From the NCBI RefSeq assembly GCF_003391055.1, contig NZ_QUAJ01000005.1:1-64000 (forward strand): 64,000 nt of DNA, given 5' to 3'. Below, piece after piece: positions 12,401-28,349 of this stretch. The stretch is from Psychrilyobacter piezotolerans (GTDB taxonomy: Bacteria > Fusobacteriota > Fusobacteriia > Fusobacteriales > Fusobacteriaceae). The position numbers and the translations under genes are program-made. The notes under the pieces are model-generated. The model saw only the letters and a list, made by a program, of their open reading frames with translations. It searched no databases and was not told where the DNA came from. Position 1 is the first letter of the stretch; every line of letters starts with the position of its first letter.

Positions 12401-13078
12401 TTAAAACGGAGAAGATAAGTCTATTGCACCCACCGGACATACTGAAATACAGTCACCACAATCATCACATCTCTCAGAGATTACACGGTATGGAGTTCCC
12501 TTTTCTATTGCTTTAAAGCTGCATTTTTTATAACATAATCCACATTGGATACACCTGTCTGTTATCTTTGGACCAGCTTCATTATACGGCATACCCCCAA
12601 AAGCAGCTCTTGTTCTCAATAATTTATGATCTCTGTTTTTACAAGAAAAATCAAAATCGAAGATTTCAACTTTTGCCTTATGTATCATGAAGTTTCCTTT
12701 TTTCATAGCGGAATACTTATCCATATCATATACAGCCAGCTGAAGGTCCTTGTTTGTTTTGGCTTTTTCTCTGACTTCTTCTTCAGGCATAAATCTGACT
12801 TCACCGATAAGTCTGATAGAATAACCTGGGGGAAACTCAGCTCCTAAATCTCCGTCGTGAGATAATATTCTGGTATCACTTACACCGCAGACAGTTATTT
12901 TTCCAGTTTCCATAAGTTGTCTCCCAAAAGGTTTATTCCACATAGTTCTAAAATATATTCCCTCTTCATCACATCCGTTAAAATGAGCTACTCTGCTGTG
13001 AACTTCGTTGTTGTAAATAGTGGAAAAAGTCAGAACACCAATCCTGTCAAATAATTCGTAGATTTCTTTAATTTTCAT
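12401..13078 (-). CDS. PPOX-type flavoprotein fused to a two-cluster ferredoxin domain
   Basis: A 225-residue fusion. Residues 1-150 form a split-barrel flavin-binding domain ([30 protein letters not shown]). The C-terminal 60 residues carry two [4Fe-4S] motifs, [11 protein letters not shown] and [15 protein letters not shown]. This suggests a ferredoxin-type electron entry to a bound FMN, hence a reductase of unknown substrate. It has a good RBS (AAGGAGTG) and stands alone. The 13079-13206 gap holds only a 27-codon minus-strand open frame that I do not interpret. Confidence 0.82.
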
Positions 13079-15494: not shown

Positions 15495-15602
15495 ATTTTC
15501 ACTCCTTATATAAATTAATTAAAAATTATTGAAGATCTTATAAAGGTCTTCATAATTTCAACTTTGAACAGTATGTTAATTTTTTTAAATTCAACCTCCA
15601 TT

Positions 15603-15620
15603 TACTTGGATGTCCAAGTA
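15603..15620. promoter_or_regulatory. MarR operator upstream of the amino acid ABC operon
   Basis: TACTTGGATGTCCAAGTA is an almost perfect 18-bp palindrome. The same palindrome with AT instead of GT at the centre lies just before the marR gene at 16100-16117. Identical half-sites (ACTTGGA/TCCAAGT) at both promoters of this pair of units make a MarR binding site very likely. Confidence 0.8.
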
Positions 15621-15630
15621 TGTTTTTAAA

Positions 15631-15665
15631 AAAATAGAATTAGTGGGACTAATTCTATTTTTCTT
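15631..15665. terminator. Terminator overlapping the marR stop
   Basis: AAAATAGAATTAG pairs with CTAATTCTATTTTT around GTGGGA. The marR stop codon (15655-15657) lies inside the stem. Confidence 0.65.
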
Positions 15666-16089
15666 CTTTAAAATTATTGTATATTTTGATTAAAACATTT
15701 CTAAAAATTTCTTTTTCTTCTTCTTTAACTCCTTTAAATTGGATATCATATAATTTCTCAGAAATTTGATTAAAACCTTCCTCTAACTCCTTCCCTTTAG
15801 GTGTTAGAAATACGAAATTTGATCGCTGATCGCTTTCGTTTTTCTTTGTGGCTGTAAAGCCAATCTTATTCAATTTTTTTACCAAGGTGGTAACAGTTGA
15901 ACGGTCTTTGTTGATTTTTTCTGCAATTTCAGTCATTGTCAATTCCCCATGTTTTATCAGTGTAACTATGATATCACCGTGGGAAGGGACAATTCCTTTT
16001 ATTCCCAGTTTTTCTAATTCAGAAATAATAAACATGCTGGAAATTTCTCTAATTTTACTTATTAAATTAATCGTATTGTCATATCTCAT
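15655..16089 (-). CDS. MarR family transcriptional regulator
   Basis: A 144-residue winged-helix repressor. The recognition region reads LTMTEIAEKINKDRSTVTTLVKKLNKIGF and the wing KKNESDQRSNFVFLTPKGKEL, as in the family. It probably binds the palindromes at 15603-15620 and 16100-16117 and so controls both itself and the ABC operon. The upstream palindrome ends only 11 bp before the start codon, and no clear Shine-Dalgarno sequence is seen, so translation may be leaderless or weak. The ligand is unknown. Confidence 0.88.
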   Translation of the reverse strand: MRYDNTINLISKIREISSMFIISELEKLGIKGIVPSHGDIIVTLIKHGELTMTEIAEKINKDRSTVTTLVKKLNKIGFTATKKNESDQRSNFVFLTPKGKELEEGFNQISEKLYDIQFKGVKEEEKEIFRNVLIKIYNNFKEEK

Positions 16090-16099
16090 AAATCTATTT

Positions 16100-16117
16100 T
16101 ACTTGGATATCCAAGTA
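16100..16117. promoter_or_regulatory. MarR operator at the marR start (autoregulation)
   Basis: TACTTGGATATCCAAGTA is a perfect 18-bp palindrome matching the site at 15603-15620. It lies between the marR start codon and the end of the upstream reductase gene. Confidence 0.8.
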
Positions 16118-16179
16118 AAGTCAAGATTTTTTTTATCCAACATATGCCCTTAAAGAAGTTCCAGGTGTCGCATGTATAA

Positions 16180-18114
16180 TTATATTTGAAGACCTGCTTT
16201 ATACCCTTCTTCTAGAGCATTAATACCATCTCTAACCTTCACTGCATCACCTATAGTTATTACTTCTTTCACTTTATTTTTCAAAATGTCTGCCAATTTA
16301 TTTTCAGATCTAGAACCTATTGCCATTACAACAGTATCAATATTATCTAATTTTATTTCTTCGTTGTTTCTTTCAACTAATACACTATCTTCAAAGATTT
16401 CTTTTACCGCTGTATTTAGCATTATATTTACATTATTTTCTTTTAAATCTTTCATTAAGAAATGGTTGACTAATGGTATTCCAAGTTTTGCGATAGCATC
16501 CTGCATTTCTACAATAGTTACTCTGCTGCCATGGTTAGCTAGATGTGCAGCTGTCTCCGCACCTACTTGACCTCCACCTATTACAACTACATTATTTCCG
16601 GTATTTTTTCTACCAGCTAAAATATCCTGTGCTATTATAACATTACCTGAATCTACTCCAGGAATACCAGGCACAATAGGATTTGCTCCTGTAGCTATAA
16701 TAACTGCATCTGGATTTTCTTTATCAACAATTTCTTCTGTAAGTTCTGTTTTTAAGAAAATATTTACTCCCAGCTTACCTAACTGCGTCTTTTGCCACAC
16801 TGTCAATGTGTTAAGCTCTTCTTTATGAGGAGGTACCGCTGCTAATAACCACTGACCACCCAATTTATCTTCTTTTTCATATAAATGTACTTCATGTCCT
16901 CTTTTAGCTGCAACTATCGCTGCTTCCATTCCAGCAATTCCACCACCTACAATGAAAACTTTCTTTTTATTTAACGCTGGCTTAATGCTTAATTCTTTTT
17001 CCTTTCCACTTTCGGGATTTACTAAACAGTGCACTGGCTGCCCTTTAAAATAAGCTCCTACGCATCCTTGTAGACATCCAATACAGTGAATAATGTCTTC
17101 AAGTCTTCCTTCTTTTGCTTTGTTTGGCAGTTCCGGATCAGCAAGACCAGCTCTGCTCATAGCTACTAAATCAGCTTTTTCTGACAATAATACTGTTTCA
17201 GCAATAAGTGGAGTGTTAATTCTTCCTACTGCTATTACCGGGATAGATACAATCTTTTTAATTTCAGATGCTAAATCAACAAAGAATCCATGTGGAACTG
17301 CTGATGGTGGCGCCATATAATACATAGATTTGTATACTCCAAAGGCTACATTAAGAAGATCTATCCCTGCCTTTTCTAGTAGTCTGGCTATTACTTTTGA
17401 ATCTTCTATAGTAAGTCCACCATCTACAAATTCATCAGCAGAAATTCTAACAGAGATTAAGTAGTCTTCTCCAACTTTTTCTCTAACACTTTCTATTATT
17501 TCTAATAGGAAACGGCATCTATTTAATATGGTCCCTCCATATTCATCAGTTCTTTTATTTGAAAAAGGTGATAAGAATTGATTTATTAAATATCCATATC
17601 CCCCTTTTAGTTCTACCCCATCATATCCTGCCTTTTTTACTCTTAATGCAGCATCACTGAAATTTTCTACAATTTCTTTTATTTCTTCAACGTTAAGTTC
17701 ATGAGGCACATCTAAAGGATAGAAAGTATTTGGGTCCTTTATAGGTGATGGTGCAACAACTGCTTTAGGTAAAGATAAATAGTTTTTAACTTCTCTTCCA
17801 GGATGACCGATTTGAGCAACTATCCTTCCACCATAGTTATGAACTCTTTCTGTTAACTTAGAATGACTTTCAATTTGTTCATCATTCCATACACCTGGAA
17901 CAAATGGTGAATCTTTACATAACTCATCAATACCATAGTTGTCTGTGATTATTAATCCCCATCCACCTTTAGCTCTCGCCTCATAATATTCAATAAGTCT
18001 ATTAGTTGCTATCCCATCTGGATTGCAGTAACTTGTTGCCACCCCTGTATTAACTAATCTGTTTTTAATTTCTAAATTACCAATTTTAATTGGTTGAAAA
18101 ATACTTCTAAACAT
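16180..18114 (-). CDS. NADH:flavin oxidoreductase / 2-enoate reductase family (two-domain Old Yellow Enzyme)
   Basis: A 644-residue enzyme of the FadH/enoate reductase/BaiCD class. An N-terminal FMN TIM barrel (about 1-340) is followed by a [4Fe-4S] site (CIGCLQGCVGAYFKG...HC) and an FAD/NAD(P)H domain with VFIVGGGIAGMEAA near residue 390 and VVVIGGGQVGAETAAHL near 515. These enzymes reduce activated C=C bonds in the cytoplasm with NAD(P)H. The VOC gene is 26 bp upstream on the same strand, so they may be co-transcribed. Substrate class (unsaturated acids, enals, quinones) cannot be fixed. Confidence 0.88.
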   Translation of the reverse strand: MFRSIFQPIKIGNLEIKNRLVNTGVATSYCNPDGIATNRLIEYYEARAKGGWGLIITDNYGIDELCKDSPFVPGVWNDEQIESHSKLTERVHNYGGRIVAQIGHPGREVKNYLSLPKAVVAPSPIKDPNTFYPLDVPHELNVEEIKEIVENFSDAALRVKKAGYDGVELKGGYGYLINQFLSPFSNKRTDEYGGTILNRCRFLLEIIESVREKVGEDYLISVRISADEFVDGGLTIEDSKVIARLLEKAGIDLLNVAFGVYKSMYYMAPPSAVPHGFFVDLASEIKKIVSIPVIAVGRINTPLIAETVLLSEKADLVAMSRAGLADPELPNKAKEGRLEDIIHCIGCLQGCVGAYFKGQPVHCLVNPESGKEKELSIKPALNKKKVFIVGGGIAGMEAAIVAAKRGHEVHLYEKEDKLGGQWLLAAVPPHKEELNTLTVWQKTQLGKLGVNIFLKTELTEEIVDKENPDAVIIATGANPIVPGIPGVDSGNVIIAQDILAGRKNTGNNVVVIGGGQVGAETAAHLANHGSRVTIVEMQDAIAKLGIPLVNHFLMKDLKENNVNIMLNTAVKEIFEDSVLVERNNEEIKLDNIDTVVMAIGSRSENKLADILKNKVKEVITIGDAVKVRDGINALEEGYKAGLQI

Positions 18115-18140: not shown

Positions 18141-18524
18141 TTACCCTCTAAATTCTATCAATTCTCCGTCGGGACCGACAAAGACTACTCTACGCCAACC
18201 CTCTTCCCTTGGTTCTCTTGCTTCAACAAGATGAGGTTCGGTATCCACAGGGATACCGGCATTTACCAGACGGGCATAGTCTTCGTCGAAGTTATCGCTT
18301 TCAAGACAGAAGTGAAATCCCTGATCTGCTGAACCTGAACCAGTCGTCAAGTGCATCATCTCTAAAACAGTATCCCCCAGCTTGAGATAAACTATTTTTT
18401 CTACTGCGGGAAAAGGTACATCGTGCTCAAAATATTTTTTAAAGCCAAAATATTCTTCATAAAAATGTATAGATTTGGCTCTATCCTTCACAGTAAATGC
18501 TATATGGTCAATTCGTTTAAACAT
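18141..18524 (-). CDS. VOC family (glyoxalase/lyase-like) protein
   Basis: A 127-residue beta-alpha-beta-beta-beta protein. MFKRIDHIAFTVKDRAKSIHFYEEYFGF at the start, TVLEMMHL in the middle and FVGPDGELIEFRG at the end carry the usual metal ligands (His, Glu, and Glu near the end). Such proteins act on glyoxal-type adducts or serve as dioxygenases or resistance proteins. It lies between the cupin-BFD gene and the reductase on the same strand. Exact activity unknown. Confidence 0.82.
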   Translation of the reverse strand: MFKRIDHIAFTVKDRAKSIHFYEEYFGFKKYFEHDVPFPAVEKIVYLKLGDTVLEMMHLTTGSGSADQGFHFCLESDNFDEDYARLVNAGIPVDTEPHLVEAREPREEGWRRVVFVGPDGELIEFRG

Positions 18525-18609: not shown

Positions 18610-19173
18610 TTACTTTTTTGTGTCAATTATGTTTTGCAGCAGAGCTTTGCATTTTCCACATTCAGTACCTGCTCCCGTTGCTTCTCCAATTTTTTCAACT
18701 GTATCTGCACCATCTTTAACTGCATTAACTACAGTTTCCATAGAAACAGCTTTACATCCACATGCTACTGCTAATATTTTTTCTACCTTTTCAATGCATC
18801 CACCGCAGCCTGTGCCTGCTCCTGTGATTTCTTGTATCTCCTCTAGAGTACGAGCACCGCCAACCATTGCTCTCCTGATATCCCCAAAACTCACTTGTTT
18901 ACAGTGACAAATAATTTTATCTACAGGGATAAGAACAGCTACCACATACAAATCACCATCACTTCTAAGGGAATGCATTGTCCCGGCAGGAACAACAAAG
19001 GTATCTCCTACATTTAACTCCACTTCCCCATCTTCTAAAACTCCAAAACCGGAACCTTTTATACAATAAAACACTTCATCACAATCGGCATGTTCATGCA
19101 TAGGAACCTCTGTATCCAAATGGATATGGTATACATTTTCCTCGATAGATTCTTTAATTAAATTTAAATTCAT
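18610..19173 (-). CDS. Cupin fused to two BFD-like [2Fe-2S] domains (paralog 1)
   Basis: A 187-residue protein with an unusual make-up. Residues 1-85 are a single cupin with intact metal motifs (HEHADCDEVFYCIKGSG and GDTFVVPAGTMH). Two tandem BFD/NifU-like modules follow: CHCK...GTGCGGC (about 97-135) and CGCK...GTECGKC (about 142-180), each with C-x-C plus C-x2-C. The two modules look like a tandem duplication (GGARTLEEIQEITGAG against DGADTVEKIGEATGAG). A near-identical paralog lies at 20714-21277 and the cupin alone recurs at the end of the AraC regulator at 21321. Function unknown: a metal- or small-molecule-sensing redox protein is plausible. Confidence 0.8.
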   Translation of the reverse strand: MNLNLIKESIEENVYHIHLDTEVPMHEHADCDEVFYCIKGSGFGVLEDGEVELNVGDTFVVPAGTMHSLRSDGDLYVVAVLIPVDKIICHCKQVSFGDIRRAMVGGARTLEEIQEITGAGTGCGGCIEKVEKILAVACGCKAVSMETVVNAVKDGADTVEKIGEATGAGTECGKCKALLQNIIDTKK

Positions 19174-19325
19174 GTTTTTTACTCCTTTTGTAAGTTGATT
19201 AATATTTTATGAAAACTTAACGTATATCTAATTAGATATAAAGTCAATTTTTTACCGTGTATCTGTCTAAAAATTTATACCTCTATTTCTATAAATTTTC
19301 AGTTGTTAATTTTAAAAAAAATGTT

Positions 19326-20660
19326 TTATGCCAATTTATTTATCCACCTCTTGCTTACAAATCTTTTCATTCCAATTAAAATACGAATAAATTCCTCAGC
19401 TAAAGTAGCTAAGTATACTATGTATATAGGTAGTTCCAAATAAAAGGCTGCAAATATTGCACCAGGTATCCCGACCACCCATAGAGCTATAAGATTTATT
19501 CCCATAACAAACTTCGTATCTCCACCGCCTCTCAGGACTCCTACCATCTTTGTCATGCTCAGTGCCTTAAATGGGAAAGATATGCAGAATGCTATCAATG
19601 TATATTGACCAAGTTTCAATACATTTTCATCTACATTATACATTCCAACTAACTTAGAGGAGAATAACCCTAGAGGAGCTGCTAAAAGAAGTGCTAGACC
19701 GAATGAAACTTTGTAGAATTTTTTCCCATCAGAATAGGCTTCGCTTAATTTCCCCTGTCCTATTTTATGAGCTATCATTACTGTGGCTGCATTAGAAAAT
19801 CCAATTACTCCAGCTATTGCTAATCTTTCAAAACTATTTTCTATATTTATTGCGGCTAATGACTCCGTTCCTATCCTGCCATAAATACCGCTGTACACAG
19901 TCTGTCCCAATGCCCATAAGGTGTCATTTATAATAACTGCTCCTGCCGTTACAATAAATGACTTTAACACAACCATATCAAAGGAGAAGAACTCCTTTAA
20001 TTTTATAGCTATTGGGTATCTTCTCCTATAGATGACTCCTACTACAACTACACACTCTATCCCACGGGCTATAGATGTGGCTAAGGCGGCACCTTCTACT
20101 CCTAATTCTGGAAATCCATAATTACCAAATATAAGCAGATAATTCAGCACAATATTCACCACTAATGATAAAAAACTTGTCAACATAGGCAATTGGCTTT
20201 CTCCTAATCCCCTAAGCAATATAGAGAAGGAAAATGATACAGCTGAAGCCATATATGACCAGGCTACTACCCTGAGGTATTTAGAAGCTGTAATTATAAC
20301 CAAAGGATCCTTCGTATAAAGCCCCATGATATACTCTGGTGTAATATAAGATATATACCAGAAACACAGTGCCATCAATATACTCAATATGGTAGATATA
20401 GATACGATATATTTCACCTTGGAATAATCTTTTTTTCCGTGATATTGGGCTATAAATACCGCTGCTCCACTGTTTATTCCCGTGATGAAAATTGTCATTA
20501 AAAAAACTATCTGGTTGGCTAAACCTAAGGAAGCTACTTCCATACCTCCTAATTTTCCAATCATAAATACATCTGCCATATTTACAGATGCCAATATTAA
20601 ACTTTGAATTGTTATTGGCAGTGCCAATATAAATAACGTTTTGTAAAAACTTCTCTTCAT
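19326..20660 (-). CDS. MATE family efflux transporter
   Basis: A 444-residue membrane protein with about 12 hydrophobic segments in two similar halves. The start (FYKTLFILALPITIQSLI) and LLRGLGESQLPMLTSFLSL are typical of the multidrug and toxic compound extrusion family, which exports organic cations or flavins with Na+ or H+. It sits between the two cupin-BFD genes, all on the minus strand, which suggests a shared response to one compound. Confidence 0.88.
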   Translation of the reverse strand: MKRSFYKTLFILALPITIQSLILASVNMADVFMIGKLGGMEVASLGLANQIVFLMTIFITGINSGAAVFIAQYHGKKDYSKVKYIVSISTILSILMALCFWYISYITPEYIMGLYTKDPLVIITASKYLRVVAWSYMASAVSFSFSILLRGLGESQLPMLTSFLSLVVNIVLNYLLIFGNYGFPELGVEGAALATSIARGIECVVVVGVIYRRRYPIAIKLKEFFSFDMVVLKSFIVTAGAVIINDTLWALGQTVYSGIYGRIGTESLAAINIENSFERLAIAGVIGFSNAATVMIAHKIGQGKLSEAYSDGKKFYKVSFGLALLLAAPLGLFSSKLVGMYNVDENVLKLGQYTLIAFCISFPFKALSMTKMVGVLRGGGDTKFVMGINLIALWVVGIPGAIFAAFYLELPIYIVYLATLAEEFIRILIGMKRFVSKRWINKLA

Positions 20661-20713
20661 CTCTTTTCCTCTTCCTCCTAAAAATAATTAAATATAACAA
20701 GCCTGTTGTTCAA

Positions 20714-21277
20714 TTACTTTTTTGTGTCAATTATGTTTTGCAGCAAAGCCTTACATCTTCCACATCCAGTACCTGCTCCTGTTGCTTCTCCAATTTTTTC
20801 AACGGTATCTGCACCATCTTTAACTGCGTTAACTACAGTTTCTATAGAAACATCTTTGCATCCACAAGCTACTGCTAATATTTTTTCTATATCTTCAGTG
20901 CAACCAGCCCAACCTATTCCAGCTCCTGTGATTTTTTGTATCTCCTCTACAGTACGGGCACCGCCAGCCATTGCTTTCCTGATATCGCCAAAACTGACTT
21001 GTTTACAGTGACATATAATTTTATCTGCAGGTATAAGAACGGCTACCACATACAAATCTTCCTCACTTCTAAGGGAATGCATTGTTCCTGCAGGAGCAAC
21101 AAAGGTATCTCCTACATTTAACTCTACTTCCTCATCTTCTAAAATTCCAAAACCGGAACCTTTTATACAATAAAACACTTCATCACAATCGGCATGTTCG
21201 TGCATAGGAACCTCTGTATCAAAATGTATATCATATACCTTTGTCTCAATAGATTCCTTAATTAAATTTAAATTCAT
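20714..21277 (-). CDS. Cupin fused to two BFD-like domains (paralog 2, one cluster site broken)
   Basis: A 187-residue near-copy of the protein at 18610-19173. The cupin metal motifs are intact (HEHADCDEVFYCIKGSG, GDTFVAPAGTMH). The second BFD module is intact (CGCK...GTGCGRC), but the first reads CHCK...GIGWAGC: one of the four cluster cysteines is Trp, so that site probably no longer holds a normal [2Fe-2S] cluster. The ATG at 21277 is chosen because AAAGGAGT lies just before it; an upstream in-frame ATG lacks one. Lies 44 bp downstream of the AraC gene. Confidence 0.8.
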   Translation of the reverse strand: MNLNLIKESIETKVYDIHFDTEVPMHEHADCDEVFYCIKGSGFGILEDEEVELNVGDTFVAPAGTMHSLRSEEDLYVVAVLIPADKIICHCKQVSFGDIRKAMAGGARTVEEIQKITGAGIGWAGCTEDIEKILAVACGCKDVSIETVVNAVKDGADTVEKIGEATGAGTGCGRCKALLQNIIDTKK

Positions 21278-21320: not shown

Positions 21321-22490
21321 CTAATCAAATTTGCGCTCATCTACCACACGAATAAGAAAAGCTGCAACATAGAGATCTCCATCACTTCTTAGGGAATGCA
21401 TTATTCCGGCAGGGGCAATAAATGTATCTCCTACATTTAACTTTACTTCTCCGTTCTCCAGTACACCAAAACCAGAACCTTTTATGCAATAAAAAATTTC
21501 GTCTAGATCTTCATGCTTGTGCAGTGGAACCACTGCTTCTGAAGAAATATGATATACATTTTCCTCAATAGATTCCCTAAGGCTATTTAATTCCATACTT
21601 TCGCTGTTTAACCAGCTATTTTTATCGTGTCTTATTATATTTCTAAATTCACTGGGGCTGATTTTTGTATTTTTTTTAAAAAATCTGGTCATATTTGACG
21701 GTTCTGTAAATCCTAATTCATAAGCAATCTCATTGATACTTTTTTGTTCGAAACTGAGTTTAAGTCTTATTTTTAGAATTAATTGCTGAATAATATACTG
21801 CTTTGCCGACATATCAATAGCTTTTCTGGTCATTAAATTAACCGTCTTTTTCGAGACATACATCATATCAGCATACTCTTTCACAGTTTTCACACTATTA
21901 ATATTCTTTTCAACTAATTCAGTGAACTGTACAAATGTTTCATTTTTTTTATATTTTGATAGATTTTCTCCTAAGCGGCTGTTGGAGAGTATCTGCATAA
22001 AAGTGTTGAAAGCTGAAGCGATTACCTTGTTATCTAAAAACTCATAGGCATTTTTGTACATATCATTTATTACATTTAAAAGGGTTGTTAATGTTGTCGT
22101 ATATAAATCGAGACAATTAACATGTGGATTTAAATAACTCAGCTTAAACAATTCTTTTACTTCAGAAGTTTGACTGCTTAAAAATTCACATAAAAACCCT
22201 TCTGTAAACGTTATTAAATACCCCTCTAAACTGTTAAATTCACTATAGCTATGAACACGATTCCTGGATATCATCAAAAGATCACCTGCTTTAACGGTGT
22301 ATTCTAAAAAATCAATTTCATGGACACCCCTGCCTCCAGTGATAAAAATTAAATTGTAAAAAGAGGTACGGTATGGTGTTTTAATGAAAGATTCATCCAC
22401 AGATTCAAAAAAACTCTTTAATGATATGATTTCAAAACCTTTGTTCTGCCCTTTTTTATTCATAAACTCAATCTGCTCTACATTACTCAT
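21321..22490 (-). CDS. AraC family regulator with an extra C-terminal cupin
   Basis: A 389-residue regulator. An N-terminal cupin-like sensor (GGRGVHEIDFLEYTVKAGD) is followed by a linker, the double helix-turn-helix (EYADMMYVSKKTVNLMTRKA and INEIAYELGFTEPSNMTRFF, about 205-285), and then a second complete cupin (residues about 300-385: HKHEDLDEIFYCIKGSG, GDTFIAPAGIMH). That last cupin is the same module as in the two cupin-BFD proteins downstream, without the BFD part. An AraC protein with a cupin after its DNA-binding domain is unusual. It probably senses the same ligand as its neighbours and controls the cluster. Confidence 0.85.
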   Translation of the reverse strand: MSNVEQIEFMNKKGQNKGFEIISLKSFFESVDESFIKTPYRTSFYNLIFITGGRGVHEIDFLEYTVKAGDLLMISRNRVHSYSEFNSLEGYLITFTEGFLCEFLSSQTSEVKELFKLSYLNPHVNCLDLYTTTLTTLLNVINDMYKNAYEFLDNKVIASAFNTFMQILSNSRLGENLSKYKKNETFVQFTELVEKNINSVKTVKEYADMMYVSKKTVNLMTRKAIDMSAKQYIIQQLILKIRLKLSFEQKSINEIAYELGFTEPSNMTRFFKKNTKISPSEFRNIIRHDKNSWLNSESMELNSLRESIEENVYHISSEAVVPLHKHEDLDEIFYCIKGSGFGVLENGEVKLNVGDTFIAPAGIMHSLRSDGDLYVAAFLIRVVDERKFD

Positions 22491-22836
22491 AATATCTCCT
22501 TTTATATTCCTTTTTTTAAGTCAAACATTTCACAAATCTATATAAATTTAAAATATACTGAAAACAAGTAACTATAATCAGTATAGATCCAATTCTAACA
22601 TTTTACAATGTTATACCTAGACCAAAAACATTCAAAATGAAACCCTTAATCATTTTGGCAGTATATGGATAATTTCCTTTTTTTTTTTGCTCTTTCACAT
22701 CCAGTACCTGCTCCTGTGATTTTTTATTAAAGTATTTTAAAGGTTTTTTTATTTTTGTCAGTATTTAGTATATTAGATATTAAATAAATTATTTTGTCAC
22801 TTTAATCGAAAAAAACCTATTGAAGGAGGGGGTAAT
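22491..22836. other. Gene-free region with a BFD-module remnant and promoters
   Basis: Between the divergent AraC and msrAB genes. It contains a small palindrome AACATT-TTAC-AATGTT (about 22598-22613), AT-rich promoter-like sequence, and a short fragment of the BFD coding sequence around 22691-22720. No intact gene is visible. Confidence 0.5.
22691..22720 (-). pseudogene. Fragment of the cupin-BFD C-terminus
   Basis: CACATCCAGTACCTGCTCCT is the same DNA as in the BFD cysteine region of the paralog near 20760-20780. On the minus strand it reads ITGAGTGCERA, matching GTGC of the BFD motif. Flanking sequence is not coding, so it is a remnant of a further duplication. Confidence 0.55.
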
Positions 22837-24005: not shown

Positions 24006-25028
24006 ATGAATAAATTCAAAAAATTTTGCAGCGGTGGAGGATGAACTTCTAAAATAGGACCGGGTGTTCTATCAAAAGTGTTGGCTCATATCCCAAAAGC
24101 ATATGATGAGAATCTGCTTATTGGATTTGATAGTGCTGATGACGCGGCAGTATATAAGGTAAGTGAGGATATGGCCTTAATTCAAACGTTAGACTTTTTT
24201 ACTCCCATAGTTGAAGATCCATATACATACGGAAAGATAGCAGCAGCTAACTCTCTCAGTGATGTTTATGCAATGGGTGGGGATGTTCTTACAGCATTAA
24301 ATATAGTGTGCTTTCCGGAAAAATTAGATCCTAATATATTGGGGGAAATTTTACGTGGGGGAGCGGAAAAAGTAATGGAATCAGGGGGAATCTTAAGCGG
24401 AGGACACTCTGTAAATGATGAAAATCCAAAATATGGATTATCCGTAACAGGAGTGGTACACCCTGATAAGGTAATAGCCAATAACACATGTAAGGCAGGA
24501 GATAAATTAATCCTGACAAAACCACTTGGGATCGGAATAGTAACAACAGCTCATAATGTAGGAGAAGCCAATGATCGTTCTTACAAGGAAGCCATAAAAC
24601 TCATGGAAACACTGAATAAATATTCAGCTGAAAAGATGAAAAAATATGAGATAAATGGGTGTACAGATGTAACTGGATTTGGGTTCTTAGGGCATTTATC
24701 GGAGATGCTGAATGATGAGATCAGTATAATAGTAGACAGTAAAAAGGTACCTTATATAAAGGAAGCTTATGAATATGCCGAAGAATTCCTGATTACCTCT
24801 GCCGGACAAAAAAATAGAAAACATCTGGGAGATAAAGTAGTTTTAGAGGGAGTTCCATTTCCTATGGAGGAGATATTGTTTGATCCGCAGACTTCAGGGG
24901 GATTACTCATAAGTGTAGCAAATGAAGATGCAGATAAACTTTTAGCTGATCTGGAGGAACTGGATATAAAATCCAGTCTTGTAGGAGAAGTTGTAAGTAA
25001 AAGTACATATAGAATGAAAGTTATATAG
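24006..25028 (+). CDS. selD: Selenophosphate synthetase containing selenocysteine
   Basis: A 340-residue enzyme that makes selenophosphate from selenide and ATP. The frame opens at ATG 24006 and passes a TGA at 24042-24044 (residue 13) in the active-site loop CSGGG-U-TSKIGPG, where SelD has Cys or Sec; the SECIS hairpin follows. Downstream motifs are family-typical: [45 protein letters not shown] and DPQTSGG. It heads selD-selA-selB. Because SelD itself needs Sec, its synthesis depends on its own product. An annotation that ignores the TGA would start wrongly at about 24078. Confidence 0.95.
24042..24072 (+). promoter_or_regulatory. Bacterial SECIS element of selD
   Basis: After the UGA (24042-24044), AUAGGAC (24054-24060) pairs with GUUCUAU (24066-24072) through seven pairs including one G-U, closing a 5-nt loop CGGGU. 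The loop begins CGGG as in the fdhF element, fitting a shared SelB recognition loop. Confidence 0.85.
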
Positions 25029-25050
25029 GCGATAAAAGGGGGATTCAAAA

Positions 25051-26454
25051 GTGAAAAAATTATTATCAAATTTACCAAAGGTAGATGAATTTTTAATAAG
25101 TGAAAAATTAGAAGAATATAAAGATAGTGTTCCATATAATATCCTGATTAAATCTATTCGTGAGGGAATTGCATTCTATAGGGAAGAGATATTGAATAAT
25201 AGATTGGCTGATACGGAGATGGAGAAGGAAGACCTGAAGATGGAGATCACCAATAAGATAATAAAGCTGATTGAATCTAAAAATCAATTAAATCTTAGAA
25301 GGGTAATAAATGCCACAGGAACGATTATTCATACTAACTTAGGCAGATCCAAGTTAATGGAAAGCAGTGTGGAAAATATAGTAAATATAGCCAGCAACTA
25401 CAACAATCTGGAATATGATATACCTAGCGGTAAGAGGGGGAGCAGATATTCCCATATTGAAAAATTAATCTGTGATATTACAGGAGCAGAAAGTGCCCTG
25501 GTAGTAAATAATAATGCAGCAGCAGTATTGCTGGTTTTAGACACCCTGACTAAGGAGAGGGAAGTAATAGTATCCAGGGGGGAACTGGTAGAGATAGGAG
25601 GCTCCTTTAGAATTCCTGCTATAATGGAATATAGTGGATCTAAGCTGATAGAGGTAGGAACAACCAATAGAACTCATAAGAAAGACTATTTGGAGGCTAT
25701 AACACCTGAAACCAAAGCACTCCTGAAAGTTCATACTTCTAACTACAAGATCATGGGATTTACTAAGGAAGTAAAGAATGAAGAGTTATCTAAGATGGCT
25801 AGAGATAAAAAATTGATCTCCATTGAAGATTTAGGCAGTGGAGTACTGGTAGATTTTGCTAAATACGGGTATAAGAAGGAACCTACAGTTCAGGAGAGTT
25901 TAAAATCCGGTATAGATGTAGTTACATTCAGCGGGGATAAACTTCTAGGAGGTCCTCAGGCTGGAATAATAGTAGGGAAAAGACAGTATATTGAAAAGAT
26001 GAAAAAAAATAATCTTTTACGTACTCTGAGAGTAAGTAAATTGACTATAGCTGCCCTGGAAGTTACCTTGAGGGAGTATTTAGATGAATCGCAAGCTGTA
26101 AAAAATATTCCTACCCTTAGAATGATATTAGAGGGGAAAGATGAGGTCGAAAAAAGAGCTCATATTTTATATGAAAAATTAAAAACTCTAGAAACTCTGG
26201 AAGTGGATCTTGTTGAAACCAGTGCAATGATCGGAGGAGGGTCTATGCCTACGGAACTTATGGATAGTTTTGGGGTAGCCATATCTTATATAGGAAGCAG
26301 TATTGTTAAACTAGAAAGAGTTCTTCGGAATAATTCATTATCTATAGTTGGTAGGATTCAAGGTGGAAAACTGGTTTTAGACTGTAAAACTTTGAATGAG
26401 AACGATATGGACAGTATTTATGAAATTTTAAGTAAAGGGATTGATACAATATGA
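25051..26454 (+). CDS. selA: L-seryl-tRNA(Sec) selenium transferase
   Basis: A 467-residue PLP enzyme converting Ser-tRNA(Sec) to Sec-tRNA(Sec) with selenophosphate. Hallmarks: RRVINATGTIIHTNLGRS near residue 90, SALVVNNNAAAVLLVL, and the PLP lysine in VTFSGDKLLGGPQAG (about residue 295). It starts with GTG after AAAGGGGG, 22 bp downstream of selD, and its stop overlaps the selB start. The tRNA(Sec) gene selC is not found in this window. Confidence 0.95.
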   Translation: MKKLLSNLPKVDEFLISEKLEEYKDSVPYNILIKSIREGIAFYREEILNNRLADTEMEKEDLKMEITNKIIKLIESKNQLNLRRVINATGTIIHTNLGRSKLMESSVENIVNIASNYNNLEYDIPSGKRGSRYSHIEKLICDITGAESALVVNNNAAAVLLVLDTLTKEREVIVSRGELVEIGGSFRIPAIMEYSGSKLIEVGTTNRTHKKDYLEAITPETKALLKVHTSNYKIMGFTKEVKNEELSKMARDKKLISIEDLGSGVLVDFAKYGYKKEPTVQESLKSGIDVVTFSGDKLLGGPQAGIIVGKRQYIEKMKKNNLLRTLRVSKLTIAALEVTLREYLDESQAVKNIPTLRMILEGKDEVEKRAHILYEKLKTLETLEVDLVETSAMIGGGSMPTELMDSFGVAISYIGSSIVKLERVLRNNSLSIVGRIQGGKLVLDCKTLNENDMDSIYEILSKGIDTI

Positions 26455-28349
26455 GTATAGTAATTGGAACGGCAGGACATATAGATCATGGTAAAACTAC
26501 ATTGATAAAAAACCTTACAGGGGTAGATACCGATAGATTACCGGAAGAAAAAAAGAGGGGAATCTCCATAGATTTAGGATTTAGTTACCTGGATCTACAG
26601 GGAGAAAAAGTAGGGATAATAGATGTCCCGGGACATGAAAAGTTTGTAAAAAATATGATGGCAGGAGCTACAGGGATAGATATAGTTATGCTGGTTATAG
26701 CTGCTGATGACGGAATAATGCCCCAGACCCGTGAGCATTTTGATATAGTCAGACTTTTAGGGATCCATCACGGAGTTGTAGTGATAACTAAGTGTGATAA
26801 GGCCAGTAAAGAAAGGGTACTGGAAGTAAGACGTGAAATAGAAGAAGAGTTAGGGGGAAGTTTTTTAAGCGGGGCTTCTATGATTGAAACCTCTATAGAC
26901 AATCCGGACTCTTACCAAGAGGTAAGGGACTCGTTGAGTGAATTAGTAAAGACTATCAAAGATGAAGAACAGGAAAAAATAGTTTTTAGGATGTCGGTGG
27001 ACAGATCATTTAGTGTAAAGGGATTTGGAACGGTGATCACAGGAACATCCCAGGGGAAAGACTTAAAAGTAGGAGATTCATTGCAGATATATCCAGGTGA
27101 CAGGGTAGCAAAGGTCAGAGGGATACAAAACCATGGCCTCAGTGTGGATACCCTCAGTGCAGGGAATAGATGTGCCATAAACCTTGCAGGGATAGATAAG
27201 GAAGATATAAAGAGGGGAAGTGTAGTAGCTACTCCTAATTCCCTTTCTGTAACCAGGCTTATGGATGTAGAAATAAATTATCTGTCTTCCAACAGCAAGG
27301 TGCTGAAAAATAACCAAAGGGTTAGATTTCATCACGGAACCAAAGAGATCATCTGTAGAATAAAATTACTGGATCAACAGGAATTAAAAGCCGGGGACAG
27401 CGGTTATGCCCAATTGATCTTAGAGAAGGAATTGGTTGGTTTCACTGGAGATCTGGGAATACTTCGTAATTATTCTCCTATGTTTACCATTGGAGGAGTA
27501 ACTATTTTAAATCCAATGGCTGCCAAGGCCAAAAGATTTGATGAAAAATTAATCGGAAAATTAAAGGGCGGGAAGAGTGATAACAGTGTTAAACTATCCA
27601 GCGTCATTGAGGAGTTAAGTTCTAAATATCCATCTTTTGAAGATATAAAATTAAATTTTGGAAGTGCTGAAGATATCACTGAATCTTTGGAAAAACTGGT
27701 TAAAAATAAGGAAGTTTTAGAGTTAACAGCTTTAAATGAAACTGTATATATGCATAAAAACTTCTTAGAGGAAAAAAAGGCGGAGCTTTTGTCTATGTTG
27801 GAGGAGTTTCACAGTAAAAACCCCCTTCTTATAGGAGAAAATACTTCAACTGTTAGAAATAAGGTTTTTTCTAAAAAATTTAAGAATAAAAACTATTTAG
27901 AGATCTTATCAAAATTAGAGGATGACAAAGTTATAAAGGTAAACTCCGGTCTGGTTTCAGCCTTTGACTTTGAGATAAAGTTAAGTAAAAACCAGGAAAA
28001 AATTAAAGAGATAATTTTAAAAACCTATAAAGATAATGGCTACAAGCCTCCTAAATATGAGGAACTTTCTAAATTAACGAGCGATCCCAAAGAATTAAAG
28101 AGGGTTTTTGATATGATGGTATTGTTAGGAAAATTGAAGTTCATAGAAAAGGATGTTTTTCTTCTGGACTCAGATTATAATAATCTAATGATGGTAATAA
28201 ATCAGCTGGGAGAAGGCGGAAAAGAGATAGCCCTTCCTGACGTTAAAGGGAAGATAGACACCAGCAGAAAATATTTGGTTGCATATCTGGAACATTTGGA
28301 TAAGGTGGGAGTAACTAAGAGGGTAGATAACGCAAGGGTACTGGTGTAA
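26451..28349 (+). CDS. selB: Selenocysteine-specific elongation factor
   Basis: A 632-residue GTPase that carries Sec-tRNA(Sec) and reads SECIS hairpins. The G domain shows [19 protein letters not shown], the switch [25 protein letters not shown] and TKCDKAS; beta-barrel domains follow, and the last 200 or so residues hold winged-helix repeats that bind the mRNA hairpin. Overlaps selA by 4 bp (ATGA). Length and layout are as expected. Confidence 0.95.

Follow-up and report, generated by a model that had tools for sequence, protein, structure and literature searches.

Proteins in which a metal-type cupin is fused to two BFD-type [2Fe-2S] modules constitute a genuine, conserved and apparently undescribed small family of anaerobes. 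Two paralogs are encoded in the window (the whole stretch of DNA analysed, 64,000 nucleotides of Psychrilyobacter piezotolerans), here termed CB1 (18610..19173, minus strand) and CB2 (20714..21277, minus strand). On the evidence of their conserved residues, gene neighbors and candidate operators, we tentatively propose, at somewhat less than even odds, that they act as inducible electron-transferring metal cupins in an electrophile- or quinone-type stress module.

Domain architecture of CB1 and CB2

The CB1 and CB2 reading frames each specify 187 amino acids and the products are 87% identical. As the first-pass annotation had proposed, each contains one intact cupin: Cupin_2 (PF07883) scored 43.0 bits in CB1 and 41.2 bits in CB2 (Pfam cut-off 27.2), and all four metal-ligand positions of the HxH-E-H pattern (H26, H28, E33 and H67) were present in both proteins by alignment. 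The cupin (residues 1–84 of CB1) is followed by BFD1 (87–135) and BFD2 (138–184), with Fer2_BFD (PF04324) matching two stretches of each protein at 101 bits for CB1 and 90.5 bits for CB2 (Pfam cut-off 26). Both modules of CB1 carry C-x-C-x31-C-x2-C (8/8 cysteines). The expectation of two C-x-C/C-x2-C modules per protein was thus borne out for CB1 and for the second module of CB2, in which the four cluster cysteines are complete, but not for the first module of CB2, which reads C89-x-C91 ... W123-x2-C126 and retains 3/4 cluster cysteines owing to a C123W change, the sole exception across the two paralogs. With dN of 0.063 and dS of 0.256, the dN/dS of 0.25 indicates that the copies diverged under purifying selection. 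An AlphaFold model of a cupin-BFD-BFD protein was good locally (mean pLDDT 85.8), with a pTM of 0.56 that leaves the domain arrangement uncertain and therefore permits no statement about electron-transfer distances; a fold search with this model returned generic cupins for the most part. Separately, a scrap resembling the first BFD module (ITGAGTGC; 22704–22735, minus strand) lies upstream of the neighboring AraC gene and is missing at the corresponding place in the sister species G055 and G059 and in Propionigenium maris. It is possibly a relic of another CB copy.

Distribution and conservation of the family

Scanning GTDB genomes with one of the proteins gave full-length relatives at 63–79% identity in P. 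maris (two), Marinifilum, Desulfoluna, a Desulfobacterium MAG and a Bacillota MAG, and a phylum search added two sister species with relatives at 86–91% identity. The fused protein occurs in four phyla, and its spread is patchy (4/98 Fusobacteriota genomes, 3/242 sampled genomes of the Desulfoluna order and 1/295 sampled genomes of the Marinifilum order). Plasmid carriage was considered and rejected, as no match was obtained. Across the 15 full-length sequences, H26, H28, E33 and H67 are invariant (15/15). The full set of eight cysteines is retained in 13 of them, and CB2 of the window (C123W) and CB2 of P. maris (C140G) each lack one. The architecture is not a chance product, considering that 15 full-length sequences from four phyla, with homologs 63–91% identical, share it and 13/15 have every cysteine. 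The parts also occur alone, as BFD-BFD proteins of ~106 amino acids (Romboutsia, several Fusobacteriota and a Lentisphaeria MAG) and as cupins of ~86 amino acids (Clostridium, Bacteroidales and Fusobacteriota). The first-pass annotation knew BFD domains as single units rather than in tandem behind a cupin, and a search for a described family in open-licence PMC literature, NCBIfam and Pfam found none.

In NCBIfam, the BFD modules come closest to the BFD region of the NAD(P)H nitrite reductase NirB, at 61 bits against a model cut-off of 578; the CB proteins differ in having no FAD, siroheme or [4Fe-4S] parts. Bfd (PDB 4e6k and 6e6r) shares the BFD fold, the CxC-x31-CxxC motif and a sequence match to module 2, but is a single-domain protein, in contrast to two tandem BFD modules behind a cupin, and the Bfd model NF007803 scored 30.7 bits against an NCBIfam cut-off of 75. 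Of the solved structures, the C-terminal domain of quercetin 2,3-dioxygenase YxaG from B. subtilis (1y3t and 8hfb), itself a cupin, is most closely related to the CB cupin, with HxH-E-H common to both, although YxaG is a bicupin dioxygenase without Fe-S modules.

A conserved core of AraC-cupin, CB and VOC

Immediately upstream of CB2 lies a gene for an AraC-family regulator (21321..22490, minus strand) with an N-terminal AraC-binding cupin, an HTH and an extra C-terminal cupin that is 74% identical to that of CB1, in agreement with the earlier description of a regulator bearing the same cupin. The AraC-cupin fusion also occurs in the sister species, P. maris and a Bacillota MAG, and it adjoins CB at every AraC-bearing locus. 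The idea that the AraC regulator recently gained its cupin by copying from the adjacent CB gene was not supported: the AraC cupins form their own group in the tree (moderate support), show no sign of exchange with the neighboring CB, and the fusion is common to P. maris and the Bacillota MAG. The AraC-cupin gene of G059 (L064 7653–8831) is split into two frames, by mutation or sequencing error.

Downstream of CB1 is a gene for a VOC/glyoxalase-fold protein (18141..18524, minus strand). Residues H7, E55, H71 and E124 are kept in 6/6 homologs, a pattern that we take to be associated with glyoxalase-I-type metal sites. At E<=1e-15, the VOC gene accompanied the fused gene in 4/4 Fusobacteriota genomes and was found in 0/94 of those without it; it is missing from the Marinifilum and Desulfoluna genomes that carry the fused gene. 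The order AraC-cupin, CB, VOC, MarR is found in G059 and is followed in G055 by an amino-acid ABC transporter, and P. maris has AraC-cupin, CB and VOC at one locus and CB and VOC at a second.

The MATE exporter (19326..20660, minus strand), the VOC protein and the two-domain OYE (16180..18114, minus strand) were all confirmed by Pfam as described in the first-pass annotation, which had grouped them with the AraC regulator and the CB proteins in one unit. Of that grouping, the AraC-cupin and the VOC protein were retained, whereas the MATE exporter and the OYE were rejected as conserved partners. The MATE gene, which sits between the two CB genes, is a complete, relocated copy: its orthologs (93% identical) are at a different locus in G055 and G059, and a 5'-truncated MATE remains at that ancestral locus in the window genome (L093 7145–8032, G000:C2). 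Synteny with the sister species stops at this truncation, marking a rearrangement. The OYE resembles BaiCD and bilirubin reductases, at scores under those models' cut-offs, and is confined to the window genome among the family genomes searched (60 others gave no relative at E<=1e-150). Both genes are missing from the CB locus in G055 and G059. As species-specific additions, they offer only weak guilt by association. The conserved core is AraC-cupin, cupin-BFD-BFD and VOC with varying flanking genes, and is smaller than first proposed.

Elsewhere in the window, positions 12401–13078 encode a PNPOx-like domain joined with a pair of 4Fe-4S motifs, genus-conserved near the locus, and positions 24078–28349 hold genes that by eye read as selD-, selA- and selB-like beside an msrAB-like gene, syntenic in the sister species.

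Regulators and candidate operators

The type of regulator beside the gene differs by lineage, with AraC-cupin in Fusobacteriota and the Bacillota MAG, an HxlR regulator (HypR/YodB-type) divergent from CB in three Marinifilum, where a nitroreductase is nearby, and a Crp/Fnr regulator in Desulfoluna and relatives and also beside the cupin-only gene of G297. A MarR regulator adjoins CB2 of P. maris (L066 9132–9563) and the cupin-only gene of G013, and these two MarRs are 56% identical. The best PDB relative of the P. maris-type MarR is S. aureus MhqR (9QDR and 9SMZ, E=2.7e-14 and 7.2e-16), a repressor that binds methylbenzoquinone (PMC12893000, PMC6798810).

A palindrome, ATATCTAATTAGATAT, is common to the MarR loci and CB1 of the window. 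Upstream of CB2 of P. maris it takes up the 17-nt spacer between the hexamers of a sigma-70-like promoter (TTGACA/TATTAT), and it likewise lies in the 17-nt spacer before the G013 cupin-only gene (TTGACA/TATAAT). The promoters of homologous MarR genes in G046 and G047 have perfect copies between –35 and –10, and G043 has a copy with one mismatch; these MarRs are 49–57% identical to the one beside CB2 of P. maris. Pirin and FMN-azoreductase genes follow the MarR gene in G046, G047 and G045, and azoreductase and LigB genes follow it in G043. This arrangement resembles the MhqR/YodB regulons of Bacillus and Staphylococcus (PMC6798810, PMC12893000) in its MhqR-related MarR, palindromic candidate operator and genes for azoreductases and ring-cleavage dioxygenases, enzymes that MhqR/YodB control in Firmicutes (PMC6798810). 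The operators differ in spacing, TATCT-N4-AGATA here against the 9-9 bp repeat TATCTCGAA-aTCGAaATA of MhqR in Bacillus and Staphylococcus; cupin-BFD-BFD proteins are not reported in those regulons, and the window genome has no close MarR of this kind.

In the window, a putative CB1 promoter (19219..19247, minus strand; TTGACT-17-TACGTT, with a degenerate –10) holds ATATCTAATTAGATAT in its spacer (19224–19239), which a pattern search found to be the sole perfect copy in the 3.36 Mb window genome. From this site we infer that CB1 could be under the control of an MhqR-like MarR. The candidate operator may be a relic, left over from a promoter of the P. maris kind, since the closest MarR to the P. 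maris type in the window genome is 33% identical and the TACGTT –10 is poor. The MarR encoded at 15655..16089 (minus strand) was rejected as a CB regulator because its palindromes, TTACTTGGATATCCAAGTAA or near it, precede itself (16099–16118) and an ABC-transporter binding protein (15602–15621), not CB1 or CB2. Both are conserved in G055 and G059, and this MarR probably controls itself and the ABC-transporter operon. A putative promoter for the AraC gene (22580..22612, minus strand; TTGTAA-17-TATACT) has a different palindrome, AACATTTTACAATGTT (22597–22612), over its –35, and the surrounding block is conserved in four genomes.

Proposed function and alternatives

Several lines of evidence argue for the electrophile- or quinone-type reading: the domains and ligand residues are conserved; the AraC-cupin/CB/VOC core is kept while its flanks change; ATATCTAATTAGATAT recurs at MhqR-like MarR loci preceding pirin, azoreductase or LigB genes; and the neighbors of family members include FMN reductase/DsbA, HxlR/nitroreductase and PNPOx. 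Cupin-only genes have neighbors that encode a DsbA-like protein together with an FMN reductase (L060), or a PNPOx flavoprotein (L058); C. rhizosphaerae has the gene string DsbA-cupin-FMN reductase, and PNPOx flavoproteins adjoin in a Bacillota MAG and C. polyendosporum. The suggestion of a reactive-small-molecule context in the first-pass annotation gains from the MhqR-like MarR with its palindrome, the HxlR regulator and the azoreductase, FMN reductase and nitroreductase neighbors. Counting against this reading are the window genome's lack of a close homolog of the P. maris MarR, the poor –10 of CB1, the Desulfobacterota neighbor regulator, which is of the Crp/Fnr type with no known quinone link, the cupin-only relatives found with metal transporters or hcp, and the uncertain domain arrangement of the model.

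Under the electrophile/quinone reading, the cupin would bind a reactive aromatic or electrophilic compound, and the BFD clusters would donate electrons to, or accept them from, this compound or the metal of the cupin; in other genomes, FMN reductases would be the likely partners in this transfer. CB2, having lost one cysteine, would work with a single intact cluster module. In Fusobacteriota, the co-occurring VOC protein may process the product or a thiol adduct. Expression would be set by the AraC regulator, whose sister cupin would read the same ligand, or alternatively by an MhqR-like MarR that may bind ATATCTAATTAGATAT in the promoter spacer and respond to quinones. A stricter version, in which one metal cupin serves in both the effector (with two [2Fe-2S] clusters) and the AraC regulator, so that a quinone-like ligand is read both as electron transfer and as a transcription signal, we consider rather unlikely.

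The cupin-only relatives bring in metal handling, in which the HxH/E/H cupin would bind copper or another redox metal and the BFD clusters would reduce that metal as a step in its export or chaperoning, as is reported for the BFD-like domain of CopZ from Archaeoglobus. One cupin-only gene immediately follows the gene for a heavy-metal P-type ATPase (L110), another precedes that for a CDF cation exporter (L059), and the CopZ_Nterm model (NF045877) gives a weak match (24.5/25.4 bits, E about 1e-5), far under its NCBIfam cut-off of 190. We regard this explanation as unlikely, as no metal transporter was seen beside a full-length fused gene at any locus, the regulators are of the MarR, HxlR, AraC and Crp types, and the palindrome is tied to azoreductase operons. 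Nitrosative stress, with the protein acting beside Hcp and NO-responsive regulators, would fit a cupin-only gene that adjoins an hcp-like gene (L072) and a BFD-BFD gene whose neighbors encode a Crp-like regulator, a PNPOx protein and a flavodoxin (L070), a grouping similar to the HcpR1 cluster that NO induces in D. desulfuricans (PMC5701242). It is very unlikely, given that L072 is the single hcp neighbor across all loci. A link to NO through Ddes_1828 of D. desulfuricans was not supported either: among 345 sampled Desulfobacterota genomes, the genome of the query itself was the only one with close relatives of this cupin, and the Ddes_1828 cupin, which NO induces, therefore probably belongs to another family.

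Two further readings concern what the fusion itself does. The protein could be a non-enzymatic redox co-sensor whose cupin pairs with the AraC cupin and whose cluster state sets AraC activity, as their constant adjacency at AraC-bearing loci and their common cupin might suggest. We find this improbable in view of the fused genes of Marinifilum, Desulfoluna and P. maris CB2, which have no adjacent AraC-cupin, and of the separate grouping of the AraC cupins with no sign of exchange. Alternatively, it could be a generic small ferredoxin-like electron carrier with the cupin as an oligomerisation scaffold only; cupin-less BFD-BFD proteins do exist, some encoded near housekeeping genes such as prmA. 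This is quite unlikely, because the cupin metal ligands are invariant in every aligned full-length, AraC-fused and cupin-only member, and a scaffold would need none.

What is apparently new here is the combination of cupin and ferredoxin domains and its regulatory link; the domains themselves are known. If the electrophile/quinone reading is true, anaerobes would employ a cupin wired to iron-sulfur clusters for electrophile defence, a task so far assigned to dioxygenases and flavin reductases. The AraC-cupin copy would then be a case of one receptor serving in both sensor and effector.
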